The notes below the pieces were generated by a model, which worked only from the letters and a program-made list of their open reading frames with translations, was not told where the DNA came from and made no database searches. A stretch of 58,242 bases of DNA, taken from the NCBI RefSeq assembly GCF_022014495.1, contig NZ_JAKLSQ010000015.1, positions 1-58,242 of the forward strand, read 5' to 3'. This DNA is from Sandaracinobacteroides sayramensis (GTDB taxonomy: Bacteria > Pseudomonadota > Alphaproteobacteria > Sphingomonadales > Sphingomonadaceae). Every line of letters begins with the position of its first letter. The stretch's first letter is position 1. Below, in pieces: positions 5,180 through 52,572 of the stretch. Position numbers and translations under genes: made by a program.

Positions 5180-5213
5180 GTCGAGAACCCATGGAAGTGA
5201 TGGATGCTTTCTC

Positions 5214-5296: not shown

Positions 5297-5326
5297 AAGG
5301 GGAATGGAAGCCCCCAGCCTGGATCG

Positions 5327-7103: not shown

Positions 7104-7140
7104 CAGCTTGCGGATTGGTAGAAGCAGTTGAGGTATTTTC

Positions 7141-7223
7141 CGTCATCCCGGGCTTGACCCGGGTTCTCGCTTCTTGCCAGCGCCGGCGGGAAAGCTGGAC
7201 CCCGGGTCAAGCCCGGGGTGACG
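7141..7223. repeat. Intergenic inverted repeat, full copy
   Basis: Both arms are present, the left arm carrying a few changes (GGGTTCTC in place of GGGGTCCAG). It sits between the convergent GNAT and SDR genes. Confidence 0.9.
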
Positions 7224-7277
7224 GAGGGGAATGGGGAATATGGCTTCTCGACCCGGGGCCGCGGGGCCTTTCCTTTG

Positions 7278-14131: not shown

Positions 14132-14222
14132 CGTCACCCCGGGCTTGACCCGGGATTCCGCTGTCTTCCTCAAGCGCTGCGCCGGTAGAAAAGCTGGACC
14201 CCGGGTCAAGCCCGGGGTGACG
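14132..14222. repeat. Intergenic inverted repeat, full copy
   Basis: Complete copy with both arms and a centre containing TCTTCCTCAAGCGCTGCGCC, similar to the centre at 25420-25445. It lies 30 bp after the PEP-CTERM gene and could serve as its transcript end. Confidence 0.9.
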
Positions 14223-17383: not shown

Positions 17384-18835
17384 CTAGCGGAAGGGGCGGA
17401 TGATGCGCCGCACGTTCGTGGGGATCATGTCCTTCAGTTCCTGCTTCCAGTAGATCAGCCGGTCCATCCCGGTCACCTTGTTCACCGGGGCCTGCAGCAG
17501 TTCCGGCCAGAGCAACGAGATATAGTCGCGGAAGAAGCCGTTGTTCAGGCGATAGCCGTTGGGGAGGCTGAGAATGGATTCGTAGATCTTCACGCCCACG
17601 AAGGGATAGATGGTGGGGCGGTCGAGCTTGTGGCCGTAGATGGACGAGGCCGCCCAGTTGCTGTGGATCTGCTCGATCTTGGCGAGATCCAGCGCGAACA
17701 CCCGGTCGCAAGGCGGCAGGCCGGCCAGCCAGCGCTCCGCCGCTTCATGGACGCGCGGCACGTCCGGGATGCGGATCATGTAGAGGAGGCGTTCGACCGG
17801 CAGGCTCTTGTGGCCGAGGTCCTCGCCGTTCCAGCTCGTCGCGCGGGTGAGTTCGGCGCAGGTGCCGCCGATCGGCTGCAGCCCACGGTCGGTTGCGACC
17901 ACGCAATCCGTCATCTTCGCGACATTCTCGAAGATGGTGTAGCCGGTGCGGTGGAGCCAGGCCTCGATCGATTGCGCCGAGCTTTCCGTCAGCGGAATCT
18001 TGTGGTGCGCCACGCCGGCCACCTGTGCGACGCGGGCGGCCATCGCACCCTCCCTATCCCCCGGGGTGACGAAGGTCTGGGTTTCCAGTCGGTCGCGCAT
18101 GTTGCGGCAGGCGGCGAGCGCCATGCGGGAATCGTTGCCGCCGCTCAGGTTCATCACCGCCTTGCCGGCCGTCAGCACGGCCTCGGTGTTGCGGCGGACG
18201 CGGGCGGCGATGTCGGCCACGAGGGGCTGCGTCTCGATCGGCTGGTCGCGGTCGAGCGCGGCGAACGCCGGTTGCGGCCAGACACGCTGGACGCTGAAGC
18301 TGGAGAGGTGGAGGCGGTGGTTGGGGTGCAGCCGCTCCAGCCCGCGCCGGGCGGTGAGGCCGAAGGGCAGGAAGCCGCGCGATTTCGGAAAGTTGAAGAT
18401 CTCGCGCACCTCGGCGTCGTCCTCGAAGTCCGCGAACAGGCTGGCCATGGTGGTGGTGGACGCGATCAGCCCGTGGGCGGCGGAAAAGACCGCGGGCAGC
18501 GCCCCGGCGATGTTCAACTGGAAGTAGCGGCCTTCCGCCGCCTCGCGGATCACCACGAAGGCGCCGCCGGCTTCGTCCAGCAGCTCGTCCAGCCGGTTTT
18601 CGGGGACGGTCAGGTCGGCGTCTTTCACATGATAGACACCATCGAAGATCACCCAGCCGAGGATGGCGGCGATTTCACGCCCTTCGGTCGTGCGGATGCG
18701 GATGCACGGCAGGTCGGGGTGGGCGTAGAGGTGCAGGCCGACAAGGCCGTTCACGACCTTCGCGCCCCTCGGCTCCTTGCGGGCGGGCTCGGACAGGAGG
18801 CACCATTGCTTCGGGAAAATCGGGCCGTCTTGCAT
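17384..18835 (-). CDS. Asparagine-synthetase-like protein without the glutaminase cysteine
   Basis: This 483-residue protein has the C-terminal PP-loop ATP pyrophosphatase domain of AsnB (SGGNDS at 231-236, with Asn where Leu is usual) and a beta-rich N-terminal region that lacks the catalytic N-terminal Cys, so glutamine use is not expected. Known relatives activate a carboxylate as its adenylate and form an amide. It sits last in the minus-strand polysaccharide arm after a ligase-like protein and an acyltransferase, so amidating a sugar acid is a reasonable guess, not shown. Start 18835 follows AGGGGGT; ATG 18859 is possible. A broken paralogue is at 25533-27011. Confidence 0.8.
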
Positions 18836-18932
18836 ATGCACCCCCTGTGTCTCGGCCATGCGGGCCGCGCGGCAAGCCGCGCTTCGATCGCCCCTGCCTA
18901 CAGATTGAAAATGAAGATTTCCAGAAAGGCCG

Positions 18933-20051
18933 TCAGCTGGCCGGCGCCCGGGCCGGGGCGAGCGGCTTTCCGTTCCAAAGCCACAGCAGGAAGCGCGACC
19001 GGGCGATGACCTGGGTGTGGAGGGCGAGAAGGGCTGGATAGCCCACGAGGAGGATGATCGCGAAGATCAGATAGAGGTTGGTGGTGAACTGCTGGGCGAT
19101 GACGGCGATCAGATAGATCGCCAGAAAGTGGAATATGTAGAAGCTGTAGACGCTGTCCGTCAGCATTTTCAGGGCCGGGCTGCCGCTGGTGACCAGCCGG
19201 CGGGCGAGCGCGAGCAGGGTGATGACGATCATCAGCATGAAGCCGGCCCTGGCCATGAAATAGCTGGCCCGCTCCAGCACCCAGGGCAGTTGCGCGCCAT
19301 AGGTGAGCTGCGCCCAATAGGCGATGGCGAAGAAAGCCAGCGCGATGAGCGGCAGGCGGTGCAGCGATTCGTAGAGGCCGCGATGGATATAGGCCAGCAG
19401 GCCCAGCGTGAAGAAGGGGAGATGCACCAGAGTCGCCATGGCGATGAAGTGCATCGGATGGCCTTGCGGCAGGTGCAGGATCTGGTCGTGGAGCGCGCGC
19501 AGGAGGACGGTGGCGGCGCCAGTGGCGAGCGCCAGCGCGAACGGCGTGGCAGCGCGATCCTCCATAAGCCATGCGACGGGGCGCAGCTTCAGCAGCCCGC
19601 GCCCGCCCGCCAGCAGCGCCGGCGTGAGCAGGGCATAGGCGAACAGCGAGAAGAGGAACCACAGATGCAGGTGCCAGTTGGACTGCGCCGGTGGATTGAC
19701 CGGCAGCCTCCAGCCGCCGTCCAGCCATTCGCCGGCCGTCATCGGGTTTCCGTGGAACCAGTGGATCAGCCAGTTGGTGAGCGGGTTCAGCAGCAGCAGG
19801 CCGGCCGCCAGCGGCACGAGGACTAGGCGGCTGCGGTTGCGCAGAAAATCCCCCAACGGTTGCCGGGAGGCGACCATGGCGCTGAAATAGCCCGACACCA
19901 GGAAGAAGGCGGCCATGCGGAAATGCTCGGAAATGTCCTTGATCCCGTCGAACAGCCAGCCGCTGCCGATGGTGGAGCCGTGCACCATGAGGCCGAACAG
20001 CATGCAGAAGCAGCGAACGGCATCCAGATGGTAGATACGCTTGGCGGACAT
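18933..20051 (-). CDS. Acyltransferase family 3 (OpgC-like) membrane protein
   Basis: This 372-residue protein has about ten membrane segments. The opening RIYHLDAVRCFCMLFGLMVHGS and the later FRMAAFFLVSGYFSA fit acyltransferase-3/OpgC-like proteins, which carry acetyl or succinyl groups across the inner membrane onto sugars. The first His-Asp-x-x-Arg block is the usual activity motif. It is 34 bp after the Wzy/ligase-like gene and 97 bp before the asparagine-synthetase-like gene, so the three are probably one operon that makes and decorates a surface glycan. Confidence 0.85.
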   Translation of the reverse strand: MSAKRIYHLDAVRCFCMLFGLMVHGSTIGSGWLFDGIKDISEHFRMAAFFLVSGYFSAMVASRQPLGDFLRNRSRLVLVPLAAGLLLLNPLTNWLIHWFHGNPMTAGEWLDGGWRLPVNPPAQSNWHLHLWFLFSLFAYALLTPALLAGGRGLLKLRPVAWLMEDRAATPFALALATGAATVLLRALHDQILHLPQGHPMHFIAMATLVHLPFFTLGLLAYIHRGLYESLHRLPLIALAFFAIAYWAQLTYGAQLPWVLERASYFMARAGFMLMIVITLLALARRLVTSGSPALKMLTDSVYSFYIFHFLAIYLIAVIAQQFTTNLYLIFAIILLVGYPALLALHTQVIARSRFLLWLWNGKPLAPARAPAS

Positions 20052-20085: not shown

Positions 20086-21702
20086 TCAGGCGGAGCGCAT
20101 GAGTGCCGGAATGGCCCCTTGGGGATGGGCTTGCGTCGGCGGCGAAGACTGCCCCTCCCTCTTCTGCTCCCCCATCACCCGCAGTTTCTGACGATAGTAT
20201 ATGCCCAGAATGAGGCCGGCGAAGCAGAAGGCGAGGCTCTGGCCGCCTTCGGTGCTGAGCACCAGCCGGGCGAGGAGAAACGCCATGATGCCGACCGCCG
20301 CCGCGCCGGCCACCTCCTCGTCGCGCGTTCCGGCGTTCAGATAGATTTTCACCCCGATGGCGATGGAGAGGGCGAAGATGCCCACGAACATGAGGAAGCC
20401 CGGAATACCGAATTCCACCAGGAGGTTGATGGGGTAGGAGTCCACCGTGAACTTGCCCGCCAGATTCCGGTAGGGGATGATGCTGTCAATGGAGCCCATG
20501 CCATAGCCGATGGGATTCTTGATGATGGCCGGTATGGCCATGTCCCACTGAACTTCGCGCGCGTTGTTGCTGGCCTGGTGCGCGCCGCCGCCGAGCACTT
20601 TGACGCGCAGCCGCGGCAGCACCAGTATCGCGGTGAACAGGGTGATGGCGGCGGCGGGATAGAGGGACAGCATCGCCGGGGCGATCAGGTCGCGATCTCC
20701 CTTGGTCAGGCGATAGCGCCGCCAGGTCCACAATCCGATGAAGGCCGGGAAGGTCGCGACGAGCGCGACCATGGCCGTCCGCGACTGCGTGAGGACTCCT
20801 GCGGTGATCATCAGCACAAGGAGTGCGGTCGCGGCCAGCCTGCGCCACTGCGTCTTTGCCCAGAAGATCGCCAGCAGGCAGAAGGGGATCAGCATGCCCA
20901 CATATTCCGCATAGATGAGCGAGTTGGTGAAAATGGAGCGCGCCCTGTATTCGTTCAGACGGGCGTTGCCGAACTGGATGGTTTCCAGAATCGCCGGGTC
21001 GATCGAAAGGAAAGCGGGAATATGGTCCGCCCAGATCGGCTTCGAATTCATATGCTCGGGGATCACCACGGCCGAGGTTATGGCCCCCGCCACGAGTATC
21101 AGCTTCATCAGCTTCTGGGGCATGTCCGGCTTCGACATGACCCATGCCGTGATCAGGAACAGGAAATACCAGAGGAAAAGCTGGTTGGTCCAACGCGAGG
21201 CGGATTCGAATTTCCCCACCGCCATCATGAAGCCCTGCCAGCCGACCCAGATGAGGAACAGCCGGGCCAATATCTTTTGCGACCCGAGAATATCCAGGAA
21301 TTCCCGGCGCAGCCGCGAGGAGGTGGCGAGCGAATAGAGCGAGATCGCCGCCAGCACGAACATCGCGATCCGCTGGAAGGAGATCCAGGGCAGGCCAGGG
21401 GCGTTGAGCGCCAGATAGCGCGGCCATATCAGCGCAAGCGCCATGAAGACGAAGAACAGCTTCACCATCAGCCGGTCGAGATTGGTGTTGACGTCGGGAG
21501 CTATCCACAGCGCTATGAGGGCCATGATGGCCACGGGAATGGCCGGGATGAACCAGCCATACATGCCGAAGACGCCGATGAAGTAGCCCAGCACCACCGC
21601 CAGAAGGATCAGGGCGGAAACGCCGAACAGCTTCGTCAGACGATGCTGCACATCGTCGACCCGCCGCGTGTAAGGCGATAGGATTCGATCCCTGGTCGTC
21701 AT
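20086..21702 (-). CDS. O-antigen ligase / Wzy polymerase-like membrane protein
   Basis: This 538-residue protein has about a dozen membrane segments and the Wzy_C-type region: LTQSRTAMVALVATFP, a long periplasmic loop, then NPIGYGMGS and a YPINLLVEFGIPGFLMF segment. Such proteins polymerise repeat units or ligate glycans on the periplasmic face; sequence alone does not separate the two. The C-terminus is a charged cytoplasmic tail. It opens the minus-strand arm and is divergent from the epimerase with 148 bp between. Start 21702 (MTTRDR) or 21726 are both possible; neither has a strong ribosome site. Confidence 0.8.
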   Translation of the reverse strand: MTTRDRILSPYTRRVDDVQHRLTKLFGVSALILLAVVLGYFIGVFGMYGWFIPAIPVAIMALIALWIAPDVNTNLDRLMVKLFFVFMALALIWPRYLALNAPGLPWISFQRIAMFVLAAISLYSLATSSRLRREFLDILGSQKILARLFLIWVGWQGFMMAVGKFESASRWTNQLFLWYFLFLITAWVMSKPDMPQKLMKLILVAGAITSAVVIPEHMNSKPIWADHIPAFLSIDPAILETIQFGNARLNEYRARSIFTNSLIYAEYVGMLIPFCLLAIFWAKTQWRRLAATALLVLMITAGVLTQSRTAMVALVATFPAFIGLWTWRRYRLTKGDRDLIAPAMLSLYPAAAITLFTAILVLPRLRVKVLGGGAHQASNNAREVQWDMAIPAIIKNPIGYGMGSIDSIIPYRNLAGKFTVDSYPINLLVEFGIPGFLMFVGIFALSIAIGVKIYLNAGTRDEEVAGAAAVGIMAFLLARLVLSTEGGQSLAFCFAGLILGIYYRQKLRVMGEQKREGQSSPPTQAHPQGAIPALMRSA

Positions 21703-21850
21703 CGATTCCAGCCCATAGGCCAGCAAGGCCGCTTGCTCCAGCGGGAAAACCGGCGCAAACGGCGCGCCGGCGAGGATTCAACAATTATTCAACGATGCAG
21801 TTCCCAGGAGATACCGGCATGAAAGCCGCGCAGAAAGCCGAACGGCCCTG

Positions 21851-22852
21851 ATGGCGACGCTTGTGACAGGTGTCGCCGGATTCATCGGCTCGGCCGTGGC
21901 CCAGGCGCTGGCCCGGCCTGGCGAGCCGGTGATCGGCATCGACTGCCTGGTGCCCTATTACAGGCTGGACCTGAAGGAGGCCCGGCTGGCCCGGCTGGAG
22001 CGGCCCGGATTCTTTCTGGCGCGGACCGACTTCGCGGACATGGCGGCCCTGGATGAAGCGGTCGCGGCGGCGGAAGGGCGGCTGGGCCCGGTCACTCGTA
22101 TAGTCCATCTGGGGGCCCAGCCCGGCGTGCGCTGGTCCATCGAGCATCCGCACGACTATGCCCGCTCCAATCTGGTGGGGCATCTCAACCTGCTGGAACT
22201 GGCGCGCCGGCTGCAGGTGCCGATGGTCTACGCCTCCTCGTCCTCCGTCTATGGCGGCAACGACAAGCTGCCCTTCGCGGTGGAGGACCGGGTGGACCGG
22301 CCAATCTCGCTCTATGCCGCCACCAAGAAGGCGGACGAGCTTCTGTCCGAATCCTATGCGCATCTTTATCGTATCCCGTTGACGGGGCTGAGGTTCTTCA
22401 CCGTCTACGGCCCCTGGGGGCGGCCCGACATGGCGGTGTGGCAGTTTACCGAAAGCTGCCTTCAGGGGCGCATGGTGCGGATATTCAACCAGGGCCGGAT
22501 GCGCCGGGACTTCACCTATGTGGACGATATCGTCGCCGGGGTGCTGGCCTGTCTTCAGCGTCCGCCGGAGGACGATGGCCTCGAAAAGCCGGGCGGAAGT
22601 CTTTCGCCGCATTCGATCTACAACATCGGCAACAACCGCTCCGAAGCGCTGATGCATCTGGTGGAACTGGTGGAACAGGCCTGCGGTCGGCCGCTGCTGC
22701 GCGAATATGCGCCGATGCAGCCGGGGGACGTGAAGGACACCTTCGCCGACATTTCCGCCATCGCGCAGGACCATGGCTTCGCGCCGCGCACGCGGCTGGA
22801 CGAAGGCATTCCCCGTTTCGTCGACTGGTTCCGGAGCTGGGCGCGCCCCTGA
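21851..22852 (+). CDS. UDP-glucuronate 4-epimerase-like NAD-dependent epimerase
   Basis: This 333-residue extended SDR has NAD motif GVAGFIG at 7-13, HLGAQPGVRWSIEHP (a block typical of UDP-glucuronate epimerases), SSSSVYGGN, catalytic YAATKKA (YxxxK) and RDFTYVDDI. It should interconvert UDP-glucuronate and UDP-galacturonate in the cytoplasm, giving a uronic acid donor. The match is strong; a different UDP-sugar cannot be excluded. It heads the plus-strand arm, followed by a flippase 94 bp on. galU in this window (50927) could feed its precursor pathway. Confidence 0.88.
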   Translation: MATLVTGVAGFIGSAVAQALARPGEPVIGIDCLVPYYRLDLKEARLARLERPGFFLARTDFADMAALDEAVAAAEGRLGPVTRIVHLGAQPGVRWSIEHPHDYARSNLVGHLNLLELARRLQVPMVYASSSSVYGGNDKLPFAVEDRVDRPISLYAATKKADELLSESYAHLYRIPLTGLRFFTVYGPWGRPDMAVWQFTESCLQGRMVRIFNQGRMRRDFTYVDDIVAGVLACLQRPPEDDGLEKPGGSLSPHSIYNIGNNRSEALMHLVELVEQACGRPLLREYAPMQPGDVKDTFADISAIAQDHGFAPRTRLDEGIPRFVDWFRSWARP

Positions 22853-22946
22853 GCCCGGAAGGCCGGACTTGTCCGCAAACCGTAACCGGCGGCCGGCCAG
22901 GCAAGTCATTGTCTTGCGGCGAGCGGCGGTCCATAGCGCGCGCCGT

Positions 22947-24257
22947 ATGTCCGGCAACCCCCTGTCCCGCCTGCGGCCGATGTTGAAGCGGCTATGGAGC
23001 CCGGCGCTGCTGGCCTATGGCATTGCCGGCGGAGTCGCTCTCGCCTCTTTTCTTTCGACCTTGCTTCTCGCCCAGCTTTCGGGGCCCGCGGTGATCGGCC
23101 AATATGCCATGGCAATGAGCACCGCCACCCTGCTGGCGAGCTTTGCCGTGCTGGGGCTGGAGCGAATCACCATTCGCGAGATCGCCGGGGATCTGAGGCA
23201 GAACGAGCGCGGCAAGGCGCGGGCGGCCCTTTCCGCCATCGTCCAGGTGGTGGCGGTGGCCGCCGCGGCCACTGCCGCGATCTACACGGCGGCCGTGCTG
23301 CTGACGCCGCTGGTTTCGCGGATCGAAGGCGACCGGATCGCCATGCTGATCGTCGTGGCCTCCATATTGGTCTGGCCGTTGCAGCGGGTGGGATATTCGG
23401 CGCTGCGCGCGGCGGGTATGCCTGTCGTCGGCCAGCTGTTCGAAGCGATGCCGACCTTCCTGTTCACGGCCGGGATCCTGCTGTTGTTCGCGCTGGGGTT
23501 TTCCCCGACGACGCCGCAGGCCGTCGGCTTCTCCGTGCTGGGGCAGGCCGTCGCCTGTGTCGGGGCGTGGCTGGTGCTGAGGCCCCGGATGCGCGCATGG
23601 GGCGCGCCCGATCGCGACGCCGTGAACCGCCGGCTGCTGGTGGCGGGGCTTCCGCTGATGGCGACCCTGTTCCTGCAGCTGTTTTCCGACTGGCTTCTGC
23701 TGGCGCGGATTTCCGCCACCCTGGGCGTCGACGAGACCGGCGCCTTCCGCGTGTCGGTCCAGGTCATCACCATCATCGCCACCATCGTCTCCACCACCGA
23801 AGCCTATGTGGCGGCGCGCTTCGCCGGGGATTTCCGCGCCGGCCGGCCGGACATGGCGTGGGCGCGCCACCGGCGGGCAACCCTTCTGATGCTGGGCATC
23901 ACGGCGCCGGCGTTCCTGCTGCTGTTCCTGGTGCCCGAACAATTGCTGTTGCTGGCCTTCGGGCCGAAGTTCGCCGTCGCCGCAACGGCGTTGAGCGTCA
24001 TGGCGGCCGGCCAGCTGATAAATGTGCTGAGAGGTCCGTTGGGCTCGCTGCTGACCATGGCCGGCTATGAGCGGGTGCAGCTTGGCTTCACGCTGGTGGG
24101 CCTGGCGATGGTGGTGGCGCTGGCGCTGCTGCTGGTGCCCCGGCACGGGCTGATGGGAGCGGCGATCGCGCAGGTGGTGCCGACCATCTTCCGCTCCGTC
24201 GCCGGCTATGCTTTCGCCCGCTGGCGAATTCCGAACAGGCCCGCAGCCGCTGGTTGA
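22947..24257 (+). CDS. Polysaccharide flippase (MATE/Wzx-like)
   Basis: This 436-residue protein has about 12 membrane segments (for example YGIAGGVALASFLSTLLLAQ and the final LVGLAMVVALALLLVPRHG). The layout fits lipid-linked oligosaccharide flippases. The segment LFLQLFSDWLLLARI resembles one seen in Wzx-like proteins. It follows the uronate epimerase and precedes alr. Start 22947 gives a short basic lead before the first helix; the longer open frame overlaps the epimerase with unlikely residues. Confidence 0.85.
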   Translation: MSGNPLSRLRPMLKRLWSPALLAYGIAGGVALASFLSTLLLAQLSGPAVIGQYAMAMSTATLLASFAVLGLERITIREIAGDLRQNERGKARAALSAIVQVVAVAAAATAAIYTAAVLLTPLVSRIEGDRIAMLIVVASILVWPLQRVGYSALRAAGMPVVGQLFEAMPTFLFTAGILLLFALGFSPTTPQAVGFSVLGQAVACVGAWLVLRPRMRAWGAPDRDAVNRRLLVAGLPLMATLFLQLFSDWLLLARISATLGVDETGAFRVSVQVITIIATIVSTTEAYVAARFAGDFRAGRPDMAWARHRRATLLMLGITAPAFLLLFLVPEQLLLLAFGPKFAVAATALSVMAAGQLINVLRGPLGSLLTMAGYERVQLGFTLVGLAMVVALALLLVPRHGLMGAAIAQVVPTIFRSVAGYAFARWRIPNRPAAAG

Positions 24258-25451: not shown

Positions 25452-25481
25452 GCTGGACCCCGGGTCAAGCCCGGGGTTACG
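25452..25481. repeat. Half copy of the intergenic inverted repeat
   Basis: Intact right arm with one change (GTTACG). The left arm can still be traced at about 25390-25410 but is heavily worn. The copy sits between the convergent alr and the broken synthetase gene. Confidence 0.8.
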
Positions 25482-25532
25482 TGGAAGAGCAGAGGCGGCG
25501 AACGACGGGCGAGGGGGTGCTCGAGCCGCCCC

Positions 25533-27011
25533 TCAGCTTGCCAGCTTCTTGCGCAGGAAGCGCTGCACCGTCTTCAGGCTGTCCAACCCGCGCCAGCCGG
25601 TTGAGCGGGCCGAGATGGTTCCGGCAGTCGCCATAGCGGTTGATCGGGAAGGCCATGGCTTCCGGCCAGAGGATTTCGCCGATGCGGGGCAGCAGCTTTT
25701 CCGAGCCGCGGTCGGGCAGCGAAAGCGTGAGGAAGCTTTCCTGTATCCGCCATTGCGCGAAGGGCATCAGCGACCAGCGCAGCGACTTCTGCGCCGGCCC
25801 CTGCCCCATGCCCCAGCTTCCCATCCGGAGCTCGATATAGGCGAGGTCCATGACGGTGGAGCGCGGCAGATGGCGGATCGGCGCCAGCCAGGCTTCGATG
25901 TCGGCCTCCATCCCGGCGTCGCGGGGCTGCTTCAGTCGGGCGAGGATGTTGAGCGCGTCCGCCGGCTGGCGGTTCACCTGCTCCCAGTCGTGGGCGTAGA
26001 GGAAGCAGCGGGCCGGTTCGCCGTAGAGGCCGTTCACGAAGACATCGCCATCGACCCCGCGCAGCGACAGGTAGATTTCGCGGTTGTTGGAACGGACGGC
26101 GTGGCCGACCATCCGGTCCCAGCGCTCGATGTCGGCGGGGGTCGAGGCGGTGATCGGAACGCTCTGGTGCCGGAAGCCTAGCTCGGCGCAGAGGCGGGGC
26201 GGGATATCCTGGTCGAAGGAGACTCGGCCGTCGGCCAAGGTCATTCCGGAAACGCTTTGCGCATGGCCCCGGAAGGCGGCGAAGACGATGCGGCTGTCGA
26301 GCCCCGCCGTCAGCCCGATGGCGATGCGGTAGCGGCTGGCGGCGGCGCCGGCGAAGCCCGCCATCTGCGCGGCGGCGGCCTGCGCCGCTTCCTCAAGGGT
26401 GGGGGCGGGGGCGGCGAGGAGCGCCGCGTGCGGCTGATCCCGCGATGCGCGGTCAGGGTGCCGGGAATCCAGCCGGCGCGGCCCTCCGCCGTGACCAGCC
26501 GGGCGTGGCGGTCGCGCAGGAAGCGCTCTTCATAGGCTGCCGGATCGAGGATTTCGTTCGCCGAGCCGCCGAAGCGCCGGGTTTCGGGGCAATAGACGAG
26601 CGGCAGGCTGGCGCCGCAATCCGGGTAGAGCCGGCGGCCGAAGGGGCCGCCATGGGTTTCGACGAGGAGGCAGCCGGAAACGCCGCGGACGATGTGCAGT
26701 TCCACTTCCTCCGCCGTGCCGATCGGCCGGTCGACGCGGATGCCGGCATTTTCCATCGAGAGGTGCGGGCCGAGCCAGCCTTCCAGCAGCAGGCCGTGCA
26801 CGGTGGCGACGCGGGCGCCGCTGGAATCGGTGACCGGCCAGGATTTGAGGCCGTGGCTGAGGGCGATTCGCGCCGGGGCGTCCGCCGGCGCCTCGCCACG
26901 GGCGCCGAAGGGTTCCAGTTCGGCGTTCACGCCATGCGGTTCGGACGATGCCATCTGTGTCTGCCACTCTTGCCGGAACTGCCGTCGGATCGAGTCGGGG
27001 TCGTTTGCCAC
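25533..27011 (-). pseudogene. Broken asparagine-synthetase-like gene, paralogue of 17384-18835
   Basis: The N-terminal half reads from GTG 27011 to GWIPGTLTAHRGIS near 26440. The PP-loop half (IGLTAGLDSR, FYxHD-like stretch, ELRMGSWGMGQGP) is in another frame from about 26430. Alignment with the intact paralogue shows that about 20 residues (its [12 protein letters not shown] region) are missing at the junction, so a deletion of about 60 bp changed the frame. A second shift near 25585-25610 moves the real C-terminus (GLDSLKTVQRFLRKKLAS, stop at 25533) out of frame. Two breaks argue against a read error. Confidence 0.8.
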
Positions 27012-27079: not shown

Positions 27080-27559
27080 TCAGTCCGCGTCGTGGTCGGG
27101 GATGGCGGCCGCGCCCCAGGGGCCTGAGACGTCTTCCAGCGTCGCGTCCAGCACCTCCTGCGTCAGGCGAAGCGCCGCGCCCCCACCGAAGCTCAGCAGC
27201 AGGGCGGCCTCCTCCGCTTCCGCTTCGCCGCCATCTGCTTCGCCGCCGTCCGCTTCGCCGCCGTCGAAGGTGATCGACAGCAGCGGCAGCACCGCGTCCG
27301 CCGCCGCCGGCCAGTTGCGGCGCTGGACGGACTTCACATAATCGAAGCGCAGCGCCGAGCGGATGCGGGTGGCGGCCCCGCCCTTCTGCGGCCCGCGCGC
27401 CGCATCCTCCCAGCGGAAGCGGTTGCCGATGAGGGCGAGGCGCTGCTGCCTCGGCTGCCAGGCGATGTCGTGGGCGAGGATCGCCATGTCCTGCACGCAG
27501 GCGGAGACGAGGATCAGGTCGTCGGGCTCTTCGGCCCGCAGCAGCAGAAGTTCAGTCAC
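27080..27559 (-). CDS. DUF2948 family protein
   Basis: This 159-residue protein matches DUF2948: the opening [25 protein letters not shown], then [19 protein letters not shown] and RSALRFDYV. Function is unknown. An insert of three GGEAD/E units near residue 100 is a tandem duplication. The GTG start overlaps the murA stop by eight bases, so it is translated with murA; the murA-DUF2948 order is frequent in alphaproteobacteria as I recall, and points to an envelope-linked housekeeping role. Confidence 0.82.
27221..27265. repeat. Three tandem 15-bp units inside the DUF2948 gene
   Basis: Three units built on CGCTTCGCCGCCGTC follow each other with two single-base differences. They code for [10 protein letters not shown] and GGEAE on the minus strand and keep the frame, as 15 is a multiple of three. 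Confidence 0.9.
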
Positions 27560-28835
27560 CGTTCACCCGTTCGATCTCGGCGCCCACCGCCTGCAGTTTC
27601 TCTTCCAGCCGTTCGTAGCCGCGATCCAGGTGATAGACGCGGCGGACCACCGTTTCCCCCTTCGCGGCGAGGCCGGCGATGACGAGGCTCATGGAGGCGC
27701 GCAGGTCGGTCGCCATCACCGGCGCGCCATGCAGTTCCGGCACCCCGCGCACCATGGCCGAGCGGCCGGTCACGGTGATGTCCGCCCCCATGCGCGCCAG
27801 TTCGGGGACGTGCATGTAGCGGTTCTCGAAGATGGTTTCCGTCAGCATCGAGGCGCCGTCGGCGACGGTGACGAGGGCCATCAGCTGCGCCTGCATGTCG
27901 GTGGCGAAGCCGGGCCAGGGGGCGGTGGTGGCGGTGACGCCGTGAAGACCGTTGGCGCGGCTGACCTTCAGCCCGCCCTCCACATCCTCGAAGGCGACGC
28001 CTGCCTGTTCCAGAACGGGGAGGGTGGAGCCGAGGAGGTCGCGGCTGGCGCCTTGCAGCACCACTTCGCCGCCGGTGATGGCGGCGGCGCAGGCGTAGCT
28101 GCCGGCCTCGATCCGGTCGGGCATGACGGCGTAGGTGGCGCCGTGCAGCCGGTCCACGCCCTGGATTTCCAGCCGCTCGGTGCCGATGCCGTCGATCTTC
28201 GCGCCCATGGCGACGAGGCAGTTGGCGAGGTCGACGATCTCCGGCTCGCGCGCGGCATGTTCGATGATGCTGTCGCCTTTGGCGAGGACGGCGGCCATCA
28301 GCACATTTTCCGTGGCGCCCACCGAGACGACGGGGAAGATGATGCGGCCGCCGGTGAGGCCCCCCTTGGGCGCCTTCGCGCGGACATAGCCGGCGGTCAG
28401 CTCGATTTCGGCCCCGAGCGCCTCCAGCCCCTTCAGGTGCAGGTCGATCGGGCGGTTGCCGATGGCGCAGCCGCCGGGCTGGGAGACGGTGGCGATCCCC
28501 TCCCGCGCCAGCAGCGGGCCGAGCACCAGGATCGAGGCCCGCATCTTGCGCACGATGTCGTAGGGCGCGGTCGTCGAGGTGGTGCGGCTGGCGGAGATGG
28601 TCATCACCCGGCCGAAATCCTCGGGCCGCGAGCCGCGCGTGTGGGTGGAGGCGCCGAGCACGTTCAGCAGATGGCCGAAAGTGTCCACGTCCGCGAGCCG
28701 GGGGAGGTTTCTGAGAGTGAGCGGCTCGTCCGTCAGCAGCGCGGCCGGAAGCAGCGTGAGGGCGGCGTTCTTCGCGCCCGAGATGGGGAGGCGGCCCTTC
28801 AGCTGCCGGCCGCCGATAATCCGTATCTGGTCCAT
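27552..28835 (-). CDS. murA: UDP-N-acetylglucosamine 1-carboxyvinyltransferase
   Basis: This 427-residue enzyme adds enolpyruvate to UDP-GlcNAc, the first committed step of peptidoglycan synthesis. [10 protein letters not shown] opens the first domain, the catalytic Cys123 is in [10 protein letters not shown], and RAGAYACAA-like and [10 protein letters not shown] blocks follow. Full family length. ATG 28835 is the family start ([14 protein letters not shown]). DUF2948 overlaps its 3' end. The 376-bp AT-rich gap upstream holds its promoter and that of the divergent beta-helix gene. Confidence 0.96.
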
Positions 28836-29211
28836 ATAAGAGGGGTAATTAGCGGGGTTGGGCCGCTTGCGCGAGAGGCCGGGACGGCAAAGCCGAAAAT
28901 TGGGTGAATATGCGCCCTGCCGGGGCCTTCGGGCGACGGTCCGAGGTCGAAAAATTGTGACAGGAAAGTTTCAGAAGATTTTACAACTAACGGAAAAATA
29001 ACAGGAAAATATTTTCCACGATTCGGCTTCGAGTCGCGTCTCAAGTTTTTCGTTCATGTAACATCCGGCTGGCGGTATATGTTCGGCTCGTCGGCGTTTA
29101 TGCACGCTTCGGCGAAAAAAACGTGAAAAATCTTGTGCGGGCACCGTTCCCTAACACAGTGCGAACGGGTCTAAAAAAACGGTCTAAAAAATAATAACAA
29201 AGGGTTGCATA
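28836..29211. promoter_or_regulatory. AT-rich divergent promoter region
   Basis: This gap is much richer in A and T than its surroundings, chiefly 28950-29210. It holds a short near-repeat GGTCTAAAAAA (29168-29178 and 29181-29191), a small stem (CCGTTC 29144-29149 with GAACGG 29163-29168) and a likely ribosome site AAAGGG at 29200. I found no clear -35/-10 pair and no known riboswitch. It probably controls murA on one side and the secreted beta-helix gene on the other. Confidence 0.45.
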
Positions 29212-31878
29212 ATGACTTTTAACAAAAGTCTCGCCTTGTGCGGGCTGCTTGCCTCTGCGGCAACGCCAGCGGCTGCATTCGATTTGTCCTCAGTCCAGTT
29301 CCTTCTCGAAGATGCCAGAAGCCGGGTCAGCACATTGCTGGCGGTCGAGGATTCCTCGACGGCCGGGAAAACGGCTGAGCGCGGCACCGCCTCCTTCGGG
29401 GCCGGCGCTGCGGTGACCGGCGGCTCGGCGGCGCTTGCCAGGAGCCTTGCCGACAGGCTGCCGGCTTCGACGCAGGCGACCGTCTCCGCTTCCCGCCTGC
29501 CGCAGGTGGCGACGGTTGCGCCCGCTGCCGGCACGGCCGCTCCGGCAAATACGGCCTTGCCGGTTGCCGCGCTTCCGGCGGCGCCAGCCCCGGCAATTGC
29601 GCTTCCGGCTGCGCCGGCTCCGGCTATCCTGGCCCCGACTATCCTGGCTCCGACGGTGACATCGCCTGCGGTCGCCGCATCGGCGCAGCCCGCAGCCAGT
29701 GCCGCTCCGGCTGTGGTGGTGGCGCCCGCGGCGTCTTCCCCTGCGCCGTCCTCCCTTGTGCTGTCCTCCCCTGCGCTGTCCTCTGCGGCCAGCGTGTCGG
29801 CCGTTTCCAGCCTTCCCGCCGCTGGGATCACCGCCGAACTGCCGGCGGCCACAGCTACTCTCGTGCCCGTTTCCACCTCGCCGGTGACGGTGGTGGAAAC
29901 CGCCGTCGTCGCGGGCGTCGCCTCGGTGGTGGAAGGGGTGAAGGAGGTGGTCTCCTCCGCCGTCGCCACTGTCAGCGGCATCGGCGGCGCGCTCGTGGAC
30001 ATGGTCGTCGCGGCGCTGGGTGGCGACAGCGGCGTCAGCGGTCCGCTGCTCAGCCGCGAGCAATTGCAATCGGCGATCCGCGTCGGGGCCGAACCCGGCA
30101 AGCTCACGCCGGAAACGCCGCCGTCGGGCGGAAACGGCGATGAACTGACGAACGAGGACGATTTGTCCGCGGCACCGGAGCCGGAGGCCGAGCCGGACGA
30201 GGTCGGGGTGATCGGCGGCAACGGCACCACCTATTATGTCGACTATGCCGCCGGCGACAACGGCAACAGCGGCAAATCCCCGGACAAGCCCTGGAAGCAT
30301 GCGCCGGGCGATTCGCTTGCGACCGGCGCGGCCGCCAGCGTTTCCCTGAAGCCGGGCGATACGGTGCGGTTCAAGGCGGGAGTCGCCTATCGCGGCAGCA
30401 TCGCGCTGAAGCACAGCGGCAGCGAGGGCAACCCGATCATCTACACCGGCACCGGCTTCGGTTCGGGGCAGGCGATCTGGGATGGGGCGGATGAGGTCTC
30501 CTCGTCGGTGCCCTGCCCCAGCCAGTCGGCTTGCGGAGGGGCGGCCAACTGGTCGAGCCTGCGCCTCGTCACTTTCGCGGAACCCGAAACGGAGCATCGC
30601 AAGCTGTTCGATGCGCAAGGGGCGCTGTTCGAGCCGCAATCGCCGGGCCAGTCCGATCCCTTCTGGGGCGCGAACATCGACCAATATGCCGTTATCCCGG
30701 TAGCCAAGGCGGCGGCGATGACGGAAGGCAGGCTGGAAGACGCCGCCCTGGCGGCGGCTGCCCGGAACGAGCCCAATGCGAGGCTGCTGCTCTGGGTGTA
30801 CGGCAACAAGGTGGTGGAGCGGACGATCGACTCCATCTCCGGCAACACCCTCTATTTCGACGGCAAGGGGCTGGTCCCCTACACCAACCGCGACAGCAAG
30901 GCGGCCATCGTCGGCGCCGTCAAGTCGGTGAACAAGCCGGGCCTCTATGCGATCATCGCGCCGGGCAAGGCCATCGTCTATCCGCGTTCGGCCGGCGCCT
31001 CGCAATATTATGTCGGGAAGGGGCGCTCGGCCTTCAACCTGCGCGGGCAATCGAACATCACCGTCCACGGCTTCCAGTTCGTTCGCGGAACGGCCTCGCG
31101 CGGGACGACCCGCGAGGGGGTCGTGGTCGCCAACTACAGCGGCGCGGTCTCCAACATCCGCATCGAGAGCAACAGGTTCCAGAACTTTTCGATGCAGAAT
31201 GGCTATGGCATGGTGATGCTGAACAATGTCACCAACCTCGTCATCCGCGGCAACAGGCTGGAGGATCTGGAAGGCGCTTCCGGTTTCCGCCTGGGATCCA
31301 AGGTGTTCAACCTGACGGTCGAGAACAACCGTCTGCGCAAGATGGGGCGCACCGGCATCTTCCTCGGCGGCGTCACCGGCGGCGTCGTCCGCTCCAACAT
31401 CCTTTCGGAGTTCCTGGGCGTCCATGGCAACGCCATGAGCTATTATGAAGCGAACAAGAGCGTCGACGTGACCGGGAACTGCGTTTTCAACAGCAGCCGG
31501 CCGATGACGTTCCACGGCGACGGCAGCGGCGGAAATACCGTCAACAACATACGCTTCGCCGACAACATCTTCGTCACCAGCGCCGATGGCACCAGCGCCG
31601 TCTACAGCTGGGGCAGCGGCATGCGCGGCGTGGTTCTGGAGAATAATCTGGCCCTCGGGCGCAAGGCAGGCTTCATCCTGAACAGCGGCGACAAGGAAGT
31701 GACCGCGACCCGCAACCGCACGTCCCGCCTGCTGATCAACGGTTCCAAGACCACGCCGGCCGGCTGGCTGATCCAGAACAACGACGACAGCGCGGAACTG
31801 GGCGATGCCGCCAATGCCAGCCTCGCGATGAACGGGTGCACTGCCCAGAGCCCGAGCGGGGTGCTGGCGGTGGGCTGA
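29212..31878 (+). CDS. Secreted right-handed beta-helix protein with long Ala/Pro linker
   Basis: This 888-residue protein has a signal peptide (about 1-22, ending PAAA), a short helical part, a low-complexity Ala/Pro/Ser/Val linker (about 90-310) and a beta-helix domain from about 339 (YYVDYAAGDNGNSG). That domain opens with PWKHAPGDSL and KPGDTVRFKAGVAYRGSI, known from polysaccharide lyase- and epimerase-like proteins, then runs of N-x-x-x-x-V/I coils (NVTNLVIRGNRLEDL). Such folds bind or cut acidic glycans. It is paralogous to the facing lipoprotein. The linker could span the periplasm or wall. Substrate is unknown. Confidence 0.8.
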   Translation: MTFNKSLALCGLLASAATPAAAFDLSSVQFLLEDARSRVSTLLAVEDSSTAGKTAERGTASFGAGAAVTGGSAALARSLADRLPASTQATVSASRLPQVATVAPAAGTAAPANTALPVAALPAAPAPAIALPAAPAPAILAPTILAPTVTSPAVAASAQPAASAAPAVVVAPAASSPAPSSLVLSSPALSSAASVSAVSSLPAAGITAELPAATATLVPVSTSPVTVVETAVVAGVASVVEGVKEVVSSAVATVSGIGGALVDMVVAALGGDSGVSGPLLSREQLQSAIRVGAEPGKLTPETPPSGGNGDELTNEDDLSAAPEPEAEPDEVGVIGGNGTTYYVDYAAGDNGNSGKSPDKPWKHAPGDSLATGAAASVSLKPGDTVRFKAGVAYRGSIALKHSGSEGNPIIYTGTGFGSGQAIWDGADEVSSSVPCPSQSACGGAANWSSLRLVTFAEPETEHRKLFDAQGALFEPQSPGQSDPFWGANIDQYAVIPVAKAAAMTEGRLEDAALAAAARNEPNARLLLWVYGNKVVERTIDSISGNTLYFDGKGLVPYTNRDSKAAIVGAVKSVNKPGLYAIIAPGKAIVYPRSAGASQYYVGKGRSAFNLRGQSNITVHGFQFVRGTASRGTTREGVVVANYSGAVSNIRIESNRFQNFSMQNGYGMVMLNNVTNLVIRGNRLEDLEGASGFRLGSKVFNLTVENNRLRKMGRTGIFLGGVTGGVVRSNILSEFLGVHGNAMSYYEANKSVDVTGNCVFNSSRPMTFHGDGSGGNTVNNIRFADNIFVTSADGTSAVYSWGSGMRGVVLENNLALGRKAGFILNSGDKEVTATRNRTSRLLINGSKTTPAGWLIQNNDDSAELGDAANASLAMNGCTAQSPSGVLAVG

Positions 31879-31944
31879 GCCGGTCCTGGCCCGGGACGTG
31901 GGCACGAGACAATCGCGCGCCCGAGACAATCACGCGAAAGACCC

Positions 31945-32008
31945 GGACCGGGAGAGACGCAGACCCTCCCGGTCCCACCTTCCAGACGCCCGCCGACGCG
32001 GGCGTCTG
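31945..32008. terminator. Two adjacent hairpins between convergent genes
   Basis: The first stem pairs 31945-31954 with 31966-31975 (GGACCGGGAG with CTCCCGGTCC). The second pairs 31983-31993 with 31998-32008 (CAGACGCCCGC with GCGGGCGTCTG), with a four-base loop. Downstream T runs are poor, so termination strength is uncertain, but the site suits ending both transcripts. Confidence 0.65.
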
Positions 32009-32057
32009 ACTTTATCCGGGGGCCCCGACGTCCCCGAATCGCCCGGCTGGAAAGCCT

Positions 32058-33785
32058 TCAACCCTTCGGCTTGAAGCGCACGACAGGCGGGATGCGGCTG
32101 CCGGGAACCGCGCAGCCTTCTTCGCTGAACTGGCCGCCGGCCACGCTGGCAAGGGAGAGATTCTCCCGGTTGTCGGCCAACGTCCAGTCCGGCGGGATAT
32201 CGCCGCGCGTGGCGATGCCCGACGTGTCGTTGCCGCGGACGACGACCTGCCGCTCGCTGCGGTTCATGAGCAGCCCGTGCTTCGGCCCCACGAGCAGGTT
32301 GCTCTCGATCAGCACGTCGCGGGTCTGGCCGCCCCAGCTGTTGATGGCCGCCTGCCCGTCCGGCGTGGAAATGAGGATGTTCCGCACGATGCGGATGCGG
32401 TTCACCATCTCGCCCTTCTTGTCCCCATGATAGGTCAGCGGACGGTTGGACGAGACGACGCAATTGCCTTCGATTGTGATGTCCTGATTGCCGAGATAGG
32501 CCGTGATGCCGTTGCCGTGCACGCCTTTGATTTCCGCCAGCACATTGCCTTTGATCTGCGCGCCCTGGACTCCGAGGACGCCGATCGCGGTGCGGCCTGT
32601 GCGGCGGATGACATTGCCGGCCACGGTGATGTTGCGCGGGCTTCCGCCGCTGGCGCGGAAGCCGCCGCCAAAGGCGATATTCTCCACCCGGTTGGCGATG
32701 AAGCGAAACCCTTCCGAACCCTGCAGATGGACGATGCCCGAACCATTTTCCAGCAGCGCGGGGCCGAACAGGTTTCCGCTCACCTCGATGTTGCGGGCAT
32801 TGGCGCCCAGAGAGGTGACGGCGCGGCCTTCGCGTTGCCCGGCCCGGCTTCCGGTCATGTTGCGGAAATGCAGCCCGGAAATCACCACATCGGACTGGCC
32901 GTTCAGATTGAAGCCCATCCGCCCCGAGCCGATGGAGAGGCTGGCGGCCGTGTCGCCCGGCAGCAGGCGGGCGACGAGGACGCCCTCGGCAACGACCACA
33001 TATCGTCCGGGGGACTGCAGCCCCTCGAAACTGCCGTTCAGCGCCACGGCGCCGTCGCGGTTGTCGTAGAAGTCGAGATCGGTCGGATCGAAGAAGAGGC
33101 GGTCGCCTTCCACGCGAAGCAGGGGCCGCCGCTGGACGAGATTGGGCCGCACCCAGAAGGCCAGTTCCATCCGGCCGCCGGCCTTGGCGGCCTTGGCCAG
33201 TTGTGGCGACGTGAAAGACCCGGACCGCATGCTGGAGAGCTGGCTGCGCGATATCGTCGCGAAGCTGTGCCGGTTGTCGCTGAAGAAGGGGTCCGGCAGG
33301 TCCGGGAGCTGGCTGAGCCAATACAGACCCTTGGCGCCATAGAGCACGATCCGCGCGGTTTGCGGCTTGGCATATTCCACCCGGGTCAGGCCCTGCCAGT
33401 TCTGTGCGCCACCGCAATCCGCCGAGCTTTGGCAGGGGCGGGCGGTGGTGACCGGGTCGGAGCCGTCGATGATGCCCATCCCCTTGTCCCAGCCAAGGCC
33501 GCTATAGGTGATCGGCTTTTGCGCCGTGCCGCTGGCAGGCAGCACGATCGTGCCGCGATAGGGCACTCCGGCGCGGAAAAGCACCTTGTCACCCGGTTGC
33601 AGGGATGCGCCGGCCGGCCGCGCGGTCGCCGCCCGGTCCCCCGGGGCGTGCTTCCAGGCGGTGGCGGGGCTTCGGCCGTCCGCCTGGTCGCTGCCGTTCC
33701 GGTAATCGACATGCCAGGTGGTGCCGCCGGCGGGCGAGCAGCCCGCAAGCGCCGCCCCGGCGGCGATCAGTGCAAAGCCCTTCAT
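32058..33785 (-). CDS. Lipoprotein right-handed beta-helix protein, paralogue of 29212-31878
   Basis: This 575-residue protein has a lipobox ending LAGC (Cys16), so it should be held in a membrane by lipid. It shares the block order of the facing gene: TWHVDYRNGSD, WKHAPGD, QPGDKVLFRAGVPYRGTI, DCGGAQNW, then beta-helix coils and GNCVVSSNRPLTYHGD (GNCVFNSSRPMTFHGD in the partner). It lacks the long Ala/Pro linker. ATG 33785 follows AGGAGGA; the frame open above it is a shadow of DUF952. It starts inside the DUF952 stop (ATGA), so the two are coupled. Glycan lyase, epimerase or binding are all possible. Confidence 0.82.
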   Translation of the reverse strand: MKGFALIAAGAALAGCSPAGGTTWHVDYRNGSDQADGRSPATAWKHAPGDRAATARPAGASLQPGDKVLFRAGVPYRGTIVLPASGTAQKPITYSGLGWDKGMGIIDGSDPVTTARPCQSSADCGGAQNWQGLTRVEYAKPQTARIVLYGAKGLYWLSQLPDLPDPFFSDNRHSFATISRSQLSSMRSGSFTSPQLAKAAKAGGRMELAFWVRPNLVQRRPLLRVEGDRLFFDPTDLDFYDNRDGAVALNGSFEGLQSPGRYVVVAEGVLVARLLPGDTAASLSIGSGRMGFNLNGQSDVVISGLHFRNMTGSRAGQREGRAVTSLGANARNIEVSGNLFGPALLENGSGIVHLQGSEGFRFIANRVENIAFGGGFRASGGSPRNITVAGNVIRRTGRTAIGVLGVQGAQIKGNVLAEIKGVHGNGITAYLGNQDITIEGNCVVSSNRPLTYHGDKKGEMVNRIRIVRNILISTPDGQAAINSWGGQTRDVLIESNLLVGPKHGLLMNRSERQVVVRGNDTSGIATRGDIPPDWTLADNRENLSLASVAGGQFSEEGCAVPGSRIPPVVRFKPKG

Positions 33786-34078
33786 GCCGGCTCCTCCTGG
33801 CCCAATGTGTCGGCCCATTCCAGCGGCCGGTAGAGATGTGGAAAATCCTGTCCGTTCCGGGACTTTTCCCATTTGAGGGCAGGGTCGCCGGCGACATCCA
33901 CCTCGGCCAGCACCAGCCCGCCCTCTCCGGCGAAATGCGCCTTCAGCGTGCCGGCCGCCTGCGCCGCCGTGGAGAGGTGGATGAAACCGTCCCGGAGATC
34001 GTCGGCAGAGCCTCGATAGCGGCCGGATTCGCGGAAGGCGGCCCACTCCCCGGCGCGGAAAATCTTCACCAACGTCAT
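33782..34078 (-). CDS. DUF952 family protein
   Basis: This 98-residue soluble protein matches DUF952: KIFRAGEW near the start, then DGFIHLSTAAQAAGTLKAHF and DFPHLYRPLEW near the end. The family has no settled role, though it has been linked by fold to ADP-ribosyl-like or small modifying enzymes only by weak likeness. ATG 34078 follows AAGGATGAA. The last four bases overlap the lipoprotein start. Divergent from the GT2 gene. Confidence 0.8.
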   Translation of the reverse strand: MTLVKIFRAGEWAAFRESGRYRGSADDLRDGFIHLSTAAQAAGTLKAHFAGEGGLVLAEVDVAGDPALKWEKSRNGQDFPHLYRPLEWADTLGQEEPA

Positions 34079-34158
34079 GATTTCATCCTTGGGCATGCCT
34101 CGGGGAACGTCAAACCCCGGCACTGGAATCCGTCGGCAGGCCGGCCTAGAACCCGGCC

Positions 34159-34959
34159 ATGTCGGAACTCCGCTGGACGATCGTCGTCCCCTATTACAAT
34201 GAGGAGAGGTGGCTGCCCGCCACGCTCCAGAGCTTGACCGCCCAAACGCTGCGCCCCTTTCATGTGGTGCTCGTGGACAATGGTTCGACCGATTCCGGGC
34301 CGGAACTGGCCCGGACCTGGGCGCAGGCGCAGCAGGGCATGAAGGTCAGCCTGCTCCAGCAGCCCACGCCCGGACAAGTGCACGCGCTGGCCATGGGAAT
34401 CGCCGCCGCCGATACCGAATTCCTCGCCATCTGCGACGCGGACACCCTATACCCGCCGCATTATTTCGAAACCGCGACAGGCCACATGGACGCGGCGCCG
34501 AAATCGACCATCGGCTTCATCGCCCACGACACCGGCCCCGACCCGGACAGCCTGGGCGAGCGCGTCGGGCGGTTCCTCTACACCCATATCATCCCCCGGA
34601 TCCTGACCCACCAGGCGCACGGCGGCGGCTACGCGCATCTGATGCGCACCGCCCCGTTCAAGGCCTCCGGCGGCTATGACCCGAAGCTCTGGCCCTATGT
34701 GCTGAAAGACCATGAACTGGTGAACCGGCTATGGAAGCACGGCCGGATCGCCTACGCCAACGACCTCTGGGTGCAGCCGTCGCCACGCCGCGCCGACCGC
34801 AAGAGCGTGCGCTGGACGCTGTTCGAGCGAATCCTCTACCACCTGACGCTGCCGGGGCAGAAAGACTGGTTCTTCTACGAATTCCTCGGCCCGCGCTTCG
34901 AGGCCCGCGGGCAGAAGGATATCGTCCTGCGGCGGCAGAGCTGGGTGGAGGGGGATTAG
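34159..34959 (+). CDS. Family 2 glycosyltransferase
   Basis: This 266-residue GT-A-fold enzyme has the nucleotide-sugar site VPYYNEERWLPATLQSL, LVDNGSTDSG and the metal-binding ICDADTLYPP (DxD). A C-terminal region without membrane helices follows, so it is likely soluble or peripheral. The acceptor and donor are unknown. Its place beside the beta-helix pair hints at work on the same glycan, by position only. ATG 34159 is the family start. Confidence 0.85.
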   Translation: MSELRWTIVVPYYNEERWLPATLQSLTAQTLRPFHVVLVDNGSTDSGPELARTWAQAQQGMKVSLLQQPTPGQVHALAMGIAAADTEFLAICDADTLYPPHYFETATGHMDAAPKSTIGFIAHDTGPDPDSLGERVGRFLYTHIIPRILTHQAHGGGYAHLMRTAPFKASGGYDPKLWPYVLKDHELVNRLWKHGRIAYANDLWVQPSPRRADRKSVRWTLFERILYHLTLPGQKDWFFYEFLGPRFEARGQKDIVLRRQSWVEGD

Positions 34960-34981
34960 CGGCATCGGGGGCGGATGCGGG

Positions 34982-35339
34982 GCGGTTTTCGAAGGGGCTC
35001 TGCCCCTTCACCCCGGCAGGGAAATGATTTCCCTGCACCCTCTTTTCGTTTGGTTGTGGGTGATTGGGGCGGTTGGGTTGGTGGTGGGGTTTGATTGCCT
35101 GCGGCGCTGGTTTTGGTGGGTGGGTGGTTTCCTTCTTGAGCGTTGTGGTTGTGGGACGGTCCCACCCCACCCCAACCCCTCCCCTGACAGGGGAGGGGCT
35201 TTCTTCTTTCTTGCGCCGCAGGCTTTTGGAATTGTTGGTGGGTGCAGGGCGCTGAGAAGCTGGACCCCGGGTCAAGCCCGGGGTGACGGGTGGTGATTTT
35301 TGAGGATCGGGGGTGCAGGGGCGTCACGCCCCTGCTGGG
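34982..35339. repeat. Composite intergenic repeat, copy A
   Basis: About 358 bp nearly the same as 52573-52913. It opens with an inverted double-hairpin (34982-35045), has a G/T-rich middle with CCCCAACCCCTCCCCTGACAG, carries a half copy of the inverted repeat (35259-35288) and ends with the start of a direct double-hairpin unit that here runs on to 35372. This fills the gap 34960-35406. No gene is likely here; an open frame crossing it is the translation of the repeat. Confidence 0.85.
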
Positions 35340-42091: not shown

Positions 42092-42182
42092 CGTCACCCC
42101 GGGCTTGACCCGGGGTCCGGCTTTCTTCTTCCAGCGCCGTGGCCGCAGAACAGCTGGACCCCGGGTCAAGCCCGGGGTGACG
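42092..42182. repeat. Intergenic inverted repeat, full copy
   Basis: Both arms are complete. The centre CTTTCTTCTTCCAGCGCCGT resembles the centre at the right window edge. It lies between convergent genes and may end both transcripts. Confidence 0.9.
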
Positions 42183-52563: not shown

Positions 52564-52572
52564 GTTGCTGGC

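Follow-up and report, generated by a model that had tools for sequence, protein, structure and literature searches.

What use might a bacterium have for two related beta-helix proteins whose genes face each other beside a glycosyltransferase, when one product appears to be secreted behind a long linker and the other appears to be a lipoprotein? The question is raised by a stretch of 58,242 nucleotides of Sandaracinobacteroides sayramensis (contig NZ_JAKLSQ010000015.1 of assembly GCF_022014495.1), hereafter the window, for which an initial annotation had proposed a two-part machine that makes, trims or holds an acidic glycan. Of that interpretation, the paralogy of the two proteins, their different anchoring and their polysaccharide setting stood up to the analysis described here, the two-part machine was not borne out, and the acidity of the glycan is hinted at. 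The two genes (A and B), their parts and two neighbours lie in the window as follows.

27552..28835, reverse strand: murA, the syntenic anchor of the locus
29212..31878, forward strand: gene A, a secreted, linker-bearing family-1 beta-helix protein of 888 residues (open reading frame; Beta_helix PF13229, E 5e-7)
29212..29277, forward strand: signal peptide of A (MTFNKSLALCGLLASAATPAAA), seen by eye, its DNA matching that of three family-2 genes at their 5′ ends
29278..29883, forward strand: Ala/Pro/Ser-rich linker of A (by composition; pLDDT of the model below 50 up to residue 335)
29884..30042, forward strand: proline-free, Val-rich amphipathic segment of A, residues 225-277 (by composition and periodicity)
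30223..31875, forward strand: family-1 beta-helix domain of A, residues 338-888
32058..33785, reverse strand: gene B, a lipoprotein of 575 residues (lipobox LAGC) with a family-1 beta-helix domain and no linker
34159..34959, forward strand: GT2, a family-2 glycosyltransferase, with a match in all six genus genomes

Both open reading frames are present and convergent, tail to tail, with about 180 bp between their stop codons, and the glycosyltransferase does adjoin B. BLASTP aligns the two proteins with 205 of 542 residues identical (38%, E 2e-123), so the motifs that had been noticed in both are not shared by chance. For B the listed open reading frame runs from 32058 to 34046 on the reverse strand, and the ATG at 33785 gives the 575-residue lipoprotein (beginning MKGFALIAAGAALAGC). 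The signal peptide of A and the lipobox of B were recognized by eye, without a predictor, and agree with the different anchoring that had been described. The linker of A, put at 220 residues in the initial annotation, is longer: about 315 Ala/Pro-rich residues separate the signal peptide from the beta-helix, which begins at about residue 338. Residues 1-336 are 24% Ala and 10% Pro, and the linker contains a 53-residue proline-free segment that is 32% Val; the model has a helix at residues 229-268, where its confidence is low. Scans of positions 28800-34200 for sigma-70 promoters and terminators gave no signal above shuffles.

We refer to the A/B type of beta-helix protein as family 1. The motifs WKHAPGD, PGDxVxFxAG and YRG, named in the initial annotation and indeed common to A and B, lie in an N-terminal cap that is weakly common to GH136, alginate lyases and other right-handed beta-helix proteins. 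More specific to family 1, in an alignment of seven members, are a C...C insert with NW, GR, G[VIM]HG[NA], TxHGD (missing in one of the seven) and SWG. The family is rare, with clear matches in at least 9 of 397 genomes of the taxonomic family to which the source genome belongs, that genome included; up to three candidates were scored per genome, which makes the count a lower bound. At E ≤0.001 matches occur in at least 11 of the 397, from which G134 and G395 were left out; weak partial matches in G134 (E 4e-4), G395 (1e-4) and G041 (4.6e-4) were excluded before counting. A search of genome contigs with B alone returned no family-1 loci, and the same search with the family-1 alignment returned five, in Sandarakinorhabdus, Polymorphobacter and Sphingomonadales/Alphaproteobacteria bins.

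In a tree of nine family-1 members, B pairs with a copy from the sister genome G004 (support 100/100), A groups with copies from G008 and G362 (82/93, which is not firm), and a third clade (100/100) unites a second G004 copy with copies from G005 and G200, all three adjoining murA. Because A and B fall in separate clades, each nearest to copies in other species, they are old paralogs, and a chance duplication is unlikely. None of the other genomes examined showed the exact family-1 pair, so the expectation that relatives would keep it failed: in G004 an ortholog of B (53%) adjoins the same GT2, and some 10 kb off lies a different family-1 copy that lacks a linker, G005 has a single copy, and the family-1 genes of G002 (locus L015, 10178-11023) and G200 (L028, 9819-11129) are truncated and apparently decaying. 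Two mobile sources were also considered and rejected. In the case of a phage tailspike origin, tblastn with B against 50,697 phage records gave no match at E 1e-3, one IMG/VR contig matches B in the N-terminal cap only, and matches of the B fold to phage proteins are taken as general beta-helix similarity. As for plasmids, 9 of 72,556 records match, in the cap only, covering 12-19% of B.

The genus is represented by six genomes, G000 (the source of the window) to G005. All six have murA and GT2, which lie about 10 kb apart or less in five and on separate contigs in G005. In G001, G002 and G003 the murA region carries, in place of family 1, beta-helix genes of another kind, designated family 2 and marked by EHPDAIQFW, REG and VQGIF. 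Each of these genomes has one long family-2 linker gene directly 3′ of the DUF2948 gene that follows murA, and its product (833 residues as called in G001, or about 797 from the conserved start; 702 in G003; 642 in G002) has a signal peptide, an Ala/Pro/Thr-rich linker and a Val-rich segment. Another family-2 gene, between murA and GT2, encodes a signal peptide and no linker, and a third is lipoprotein-like, with LLAGC in G002, ALIGC in G003 and a weak lipobox, LATAC, in G001. The linker and lipoprotein genes are adjacent and facing in G002, as A and B are; in G003 they point toward each other with other genes in between, and in G001 they stand in tandem. In the source genome A sits on the opposite side of murA, adjoining B, a slot that differs from that of the family-2 linker genes, and family 2 gave no match there at E 1e-20 among the best 4 of 10 candidates. 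The architecture of a linker-bearing secreted protein plus a lipoprotein-like one is thus kept in the neighbourhood in G001-G003, with another beta-helix family. Outside the genus, two large proteins are encoded near family-1 genes, one with two family-2-like beta-helix stretches (L025, 6552-9479, in G255) and one with a family-2-like beta-helix and RTX calcium-binding repeats (L013, 1608-3872, in G008).

The likeness between A and the family-2 linker genes extends to their DNA, where two elements can be placed in the window.

29084..29116, forward strand: 33-bp two-box upstream element, 128 nt 5′ of the start codon of A, shared with three family-2 linker genes
29197..29234, forward strand: conserved ribosome-binding-site and start-codon stretch of A (38-base pattern)

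The 5′ end of A is 85% identical to that of the G001 linker gene over 54 bp (E 2e-12, computed for a set of five 520-base stretches), 81% over 67 bp to that of G002 and 73% over 79 bp to that of G003, and these matches cover the ribosome-binding site and the signal peptide. The 33-bp element begins 118-128 nt 5′ of the start codon across the four linker genes, and a position weight matrix made from those same four sites scores them at 37-46 and everything else at 18.1 or less in 21 sequences (the window and 20 loci). The 38-base pattern, drawn from the same linker genes, occurs exactly once in each of G000-G003, at the linker gene, and is absent from G004 and G005; reversed-pattern controls gave zero. 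Its 19-base core was found in G000 only among 99 wider-family genomes, a sample outside which G001-G005 fall.

All four linker proteins have an amphipathic proline-free segment, with a whole-segment peak at 97-99 degrees per residue. In shuffle tests p was 0.001 for A and none of 5000 shuffles reached the other three; for the best 18-residue window A is weaker (p 0.013) than the others (0.002 or less). The 11-residue repeats of right-handed coiled coils and of helices at membrane surfaces have a period near 98 degrees, which over segments of 39-45 residues is indistinguishable from 100 degrees. Given the common 5′ leader, linker and helix, together with a recurring lipoprotein gene and a beta-helix family that differs, secretion and anchoring look constant and the catalytic body looks exchangeable.

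Are the two kinds of body related? A profile comparison of families 1 and 2 gives a probability of 96.4% (E 1.3e-9, 215 columns), and remote homology is likely, short of proven because repeat periodicity can inflate profile scores. The alignment places R398 of B on the invariant R208 of family 2, H423 on H238 and Y430 on W245, and within family 1 R398, H423, Y430 (B numbering) and SWG are invariant in the seven aligned members, of which A and B are two. No beta-helix Asp or Glu is conserved throughout the seven, a result that depends on one divergent member, from G255, which has lost HGD; without it, E319, H453 and D455 are invariant. An invariant Arg/His/Tyr set without a carboxylate would suit a lyase or an epimerase better than a hydrolase. 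Since a hydrolase could use the residues that are invariant without the G255 member, the odds of a lyase are lowered somewhat and those of a hydrolase raised.

Structure prediction, which the initial annotation had recommended for both proteins, gave regular short parallel strands and hence a right-handed beta-helix for B (pLDDT 82.5) and a model of A that is reliable in its beta-helix only. A passes the Beta_helix profile PF13229 (29.8 against a cut-off of 25.9), with B just below (25.5), and B is just above the cut-off of NosD PF05048 (23.7 against 23.6). In a Foldseek search with B the best match is the glycoside hydrolase BT_1002 (5mqp; E 1.5e-11, TM 0.48-0.50, rmsd 9-11, 11-12% identity), which we take to belong to GH141. 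Other matches are GH110, XylC, the Klebsiella K1 lyase, GH136, AlgE4, AlgG and RbmB (E 1.9e-4), mostly carbohydrate-active beta-helices with phage tailspikes and the adhesin PfbA interspersed. The query-normalised TM of these matches is 0.5 or less, the best of them being glycoside hydrolases, and such likeness of predicted folds does not decide the chemistry of B. The recommended searches of named enzyme families found none that fits: no polysaccharide lyase family matches beyond the N-terminal cap, and no epimerase family of the AlgG/AlgE kind is among the profile matches. PL6 lyases have a catalytic Lys/Arg arrangement; neither A nor B matches PL6 PF14592 (Chondroitinas_B / alginate lyase) at E 1, and alginate lyases in the PDB match A and B in the cap only, at E 0.017 or worse.

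That A and B are glycoside hydrolases related to GH141, GH120 or GH136 deserves weighing. It is the reading to which the best fold match, the GH136-like cap and the near-invariant E319 and D455 would point, and we consider it unlikely, since no beta-helix carboxylate is invariant once the G255 member is counted and the GH136 model (NCBIfam LnbX) scores 18 and 18.5 bits against a cut-off of 2500, again in the cap only. It could also be that the pair binds or holds an exopolysaccharide without cutting it, B tethering the polymer to the outer membrane and A cross-linking it. Two differently placed copies suit holding, the fold matches include PfbA (titled an adhesin), and WceF reportedly shows a lectin-like agglutination with its polymer (PMC7949094). 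The invariance of R398, H423, Y430 and SWG in seven members despite pairwise identities as low as 26%, however, suggests an active site, as does the alignment of the Arg/His pair with family 2, and we doubt that binding is the main role. Still less probable is that A and B are C5-epimerases that convert uronic acids of the polymer, like AlgG and AlgE4: both of these are among the fold matches and periplasmic placement would suit, but the query-normalised TM is only 0.20-0.28, neither protein matches the mannuronan C5-epimerase family, and a uronic acid is unproven.

What the polymer might be is indicated by the surrounding genes of the window.

17384..18859, reverse strand: asparagine-synthase-like protein (weak, short of the Pfam cut-off)
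18933..20051, reverse strand: acyltransferase 3 family protein
20086..21726, reverse strand: Wzy-like polymerase/O-antigen ligase family protein
21851..22852, forward strand: NAD-dependent sugar epimerase (none of 25 shown NCBIfam equivalogs passes its cut-off)
22773..24257, forward strand: Wzx/MATE-like flippase (weak, short of the Pfam cut-off; start of the reading frame uncertain)

Together with GT2 these genes all lie between 17.4 and 35 kb along the window, and an alanine racemase is found around the pair as well; going by the gene families we infer that the locus makes an exopolysaccharide. The sugar epimerase is presumably UDP-glucuronate 4-epimerase-like, and its closest solved structure, 5u4q, was deposited as a dTDP-glucose 4,6-dehydratase; a lyase would require a uronic acid, of which this gene is a hint. 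The genome's sole match to the initiating sugar transferase PF02397 is on another contig (C34), about 6 kb from the best of three genome matches to the export protein PF02563. The transferase lies in that contig's locus L142 (8896-12269) near a reading frame the start of which presumably resembles an exosortase-system EpsI protein.

Several other features of the region were recorded. A second asparagine-synthase-like gene (25477-26364, reverse strand), a BLAST paralog of that at 17384-18859, is apparently split across two overlapping frames (25477-27011, reverse strand) near a C/G-rich run and is either a pseudogene or a sequencing error; proteins of this type are also encoded near the family-1 genes of G255 and G008. 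Reading frames at 2160, 3836, 5280, 8143, 11348, 12803, 16285, 17351, 21785, 22992 and 24356 have no Pfam match, are probably antisense to real genes and were set aside. Two copies, 91% identical, of a dispersed repeat some 365 bp long occupy 34976-35339 and 52566-52913, and a 221-bp part of the repeat has at least 30 matches in the genome (among the best 40 of 195 candidates), seven of them longer than 120 bp. A second dispersed repeat, of about 90-100 bp and 84-91% identity, lies at about 5208-5307, 7136-7234, 14132-14222 and 42092-42182, with inverted matches too.

Across the 397 genomes, relatives of the Wzy-like protein (E ≤1e-20) occur in at least 54, a lower bound with up to three candidates scored per genome. 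Wzy is present in all nine clear family-1 genomes and within 25 kb of family 1 in at least six of them, the two being on different contigs in three. Family 2, for which up to four candidates were scored per genome and the count is again a minimum, is found in at least 43 of 397; 40 of those 43 have Wzy, at least 24 of the 40 within 25 kb. At least 44 of the 54 Wzy genomes have family 1 or 2 (Fisher p 5e-45, ignoring kinship), and among the matches listed 10 of the 54 have neither family and 3 of the 43 family-2 genomes lack Wzy. Systems that break down food polysaccharides often include secreted and lipoprotein glycan enzymes, which counts for the idea that A and B serve nutrition by attacking foreign polysaccharides of plants or algae, yet with synthesis-type neighbours and a presence that tracks Wzy this is very improbable.

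The reading that we favour, with modest confidence, is that A and B are enzymes for the cell's own exopolysaccharide, most likely lyases; their catalysis, chemistry, substrate and final location are part of that proposal. Both would be extracytoplasmic beta-helix enzymes dedicated to a Wzx/Wzy polymer, which they would cleave in a lyase-type reaction with a putative Arg/His/Tyr active site. As a lipoprotein, B would work in the periplasm or outer membrane, and A would be outside the cell or loosely held at its surface by the long linker and amphipathic helix. How long the polymer chains become, or how they are released, might then be set both at the membrane and farther out. Like the depolymerases of other exopolysaccharide loci, A and B appear from their neighbours to be encoded in the locus of the polymer itself.

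Enzymes of this kind are already known. RbmB of Vibrio cholerae is described as a secreted lyase with a predicted parallel beta-helix fold, its gene lying in the biofilm cluster for the polymer that it cuts, and the passages drawn on describe no exchangeable leader or lipoprotein partner (PMC11637428). Its solved structure (9ozl) is the RbmB match in the fold search with B and, like A and B, it is a beta-helix enzyme encoded at a polymer locus, but TM is low (0.24 by query, 0.34 by target) at 11% identity. WceF of Pantoea stewartii is a beta-helix glycan enzyme encoded inside an exopolysaccharide synthesis cluster, and its knockouts reportedly make a longer polymer; unlike A and B it is a trimeric, tailspike-like hydrolase with a Tat signal, and the likeness is one of description, not of sequence (PMC7949094). 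Among sphingomonads, the sphingan lyases WelR (PMC7899989) and SpnR/GelR (PMC5399355) act on the cell's own exopolysaccharide, SpnR reportedly releasing it from the outer membrane; these too are likened to A and B by description only, and the portions of the two sources used describe no pair of linker protein and lipoprotein. A and B are a sequence family of their own within this known kind, and a search of the open-access literature found no description of this locus or of an exchange of the enzyme body.

Such an exchange, as an event, is something we infer from the comparison of sister genomes. We tentatively propose, as a possibility somewhat short of probable, that one clade has preserved an unchanging unit, from the upstream element and ribosome-binding site through the signal peptide and Ala/Pro/Thr linker to the amphipathic helix, and has exchanged the catalytic beta-helix behind it between two remotely related families to match whichever exopolysaccharide the neighbouring, variable Wzy locus makes, with the lipoprotein partner kept and switching family too.

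Bacteria that change the chemistry of their capsule or slime should also have to change the enzyme that trims or releases that polymer. Among the sister species here, the enzyme body appears to differ while the gene start, the secretion signal and the anchor stay the same, and the family is switched in both partners. If this is true, the genus would offer a natural series for testing the joint evolution of exopolysaccharide type and the cell's own depolymerase, and the leader would be a signpost for finding enzymes that cut unknown polymers.
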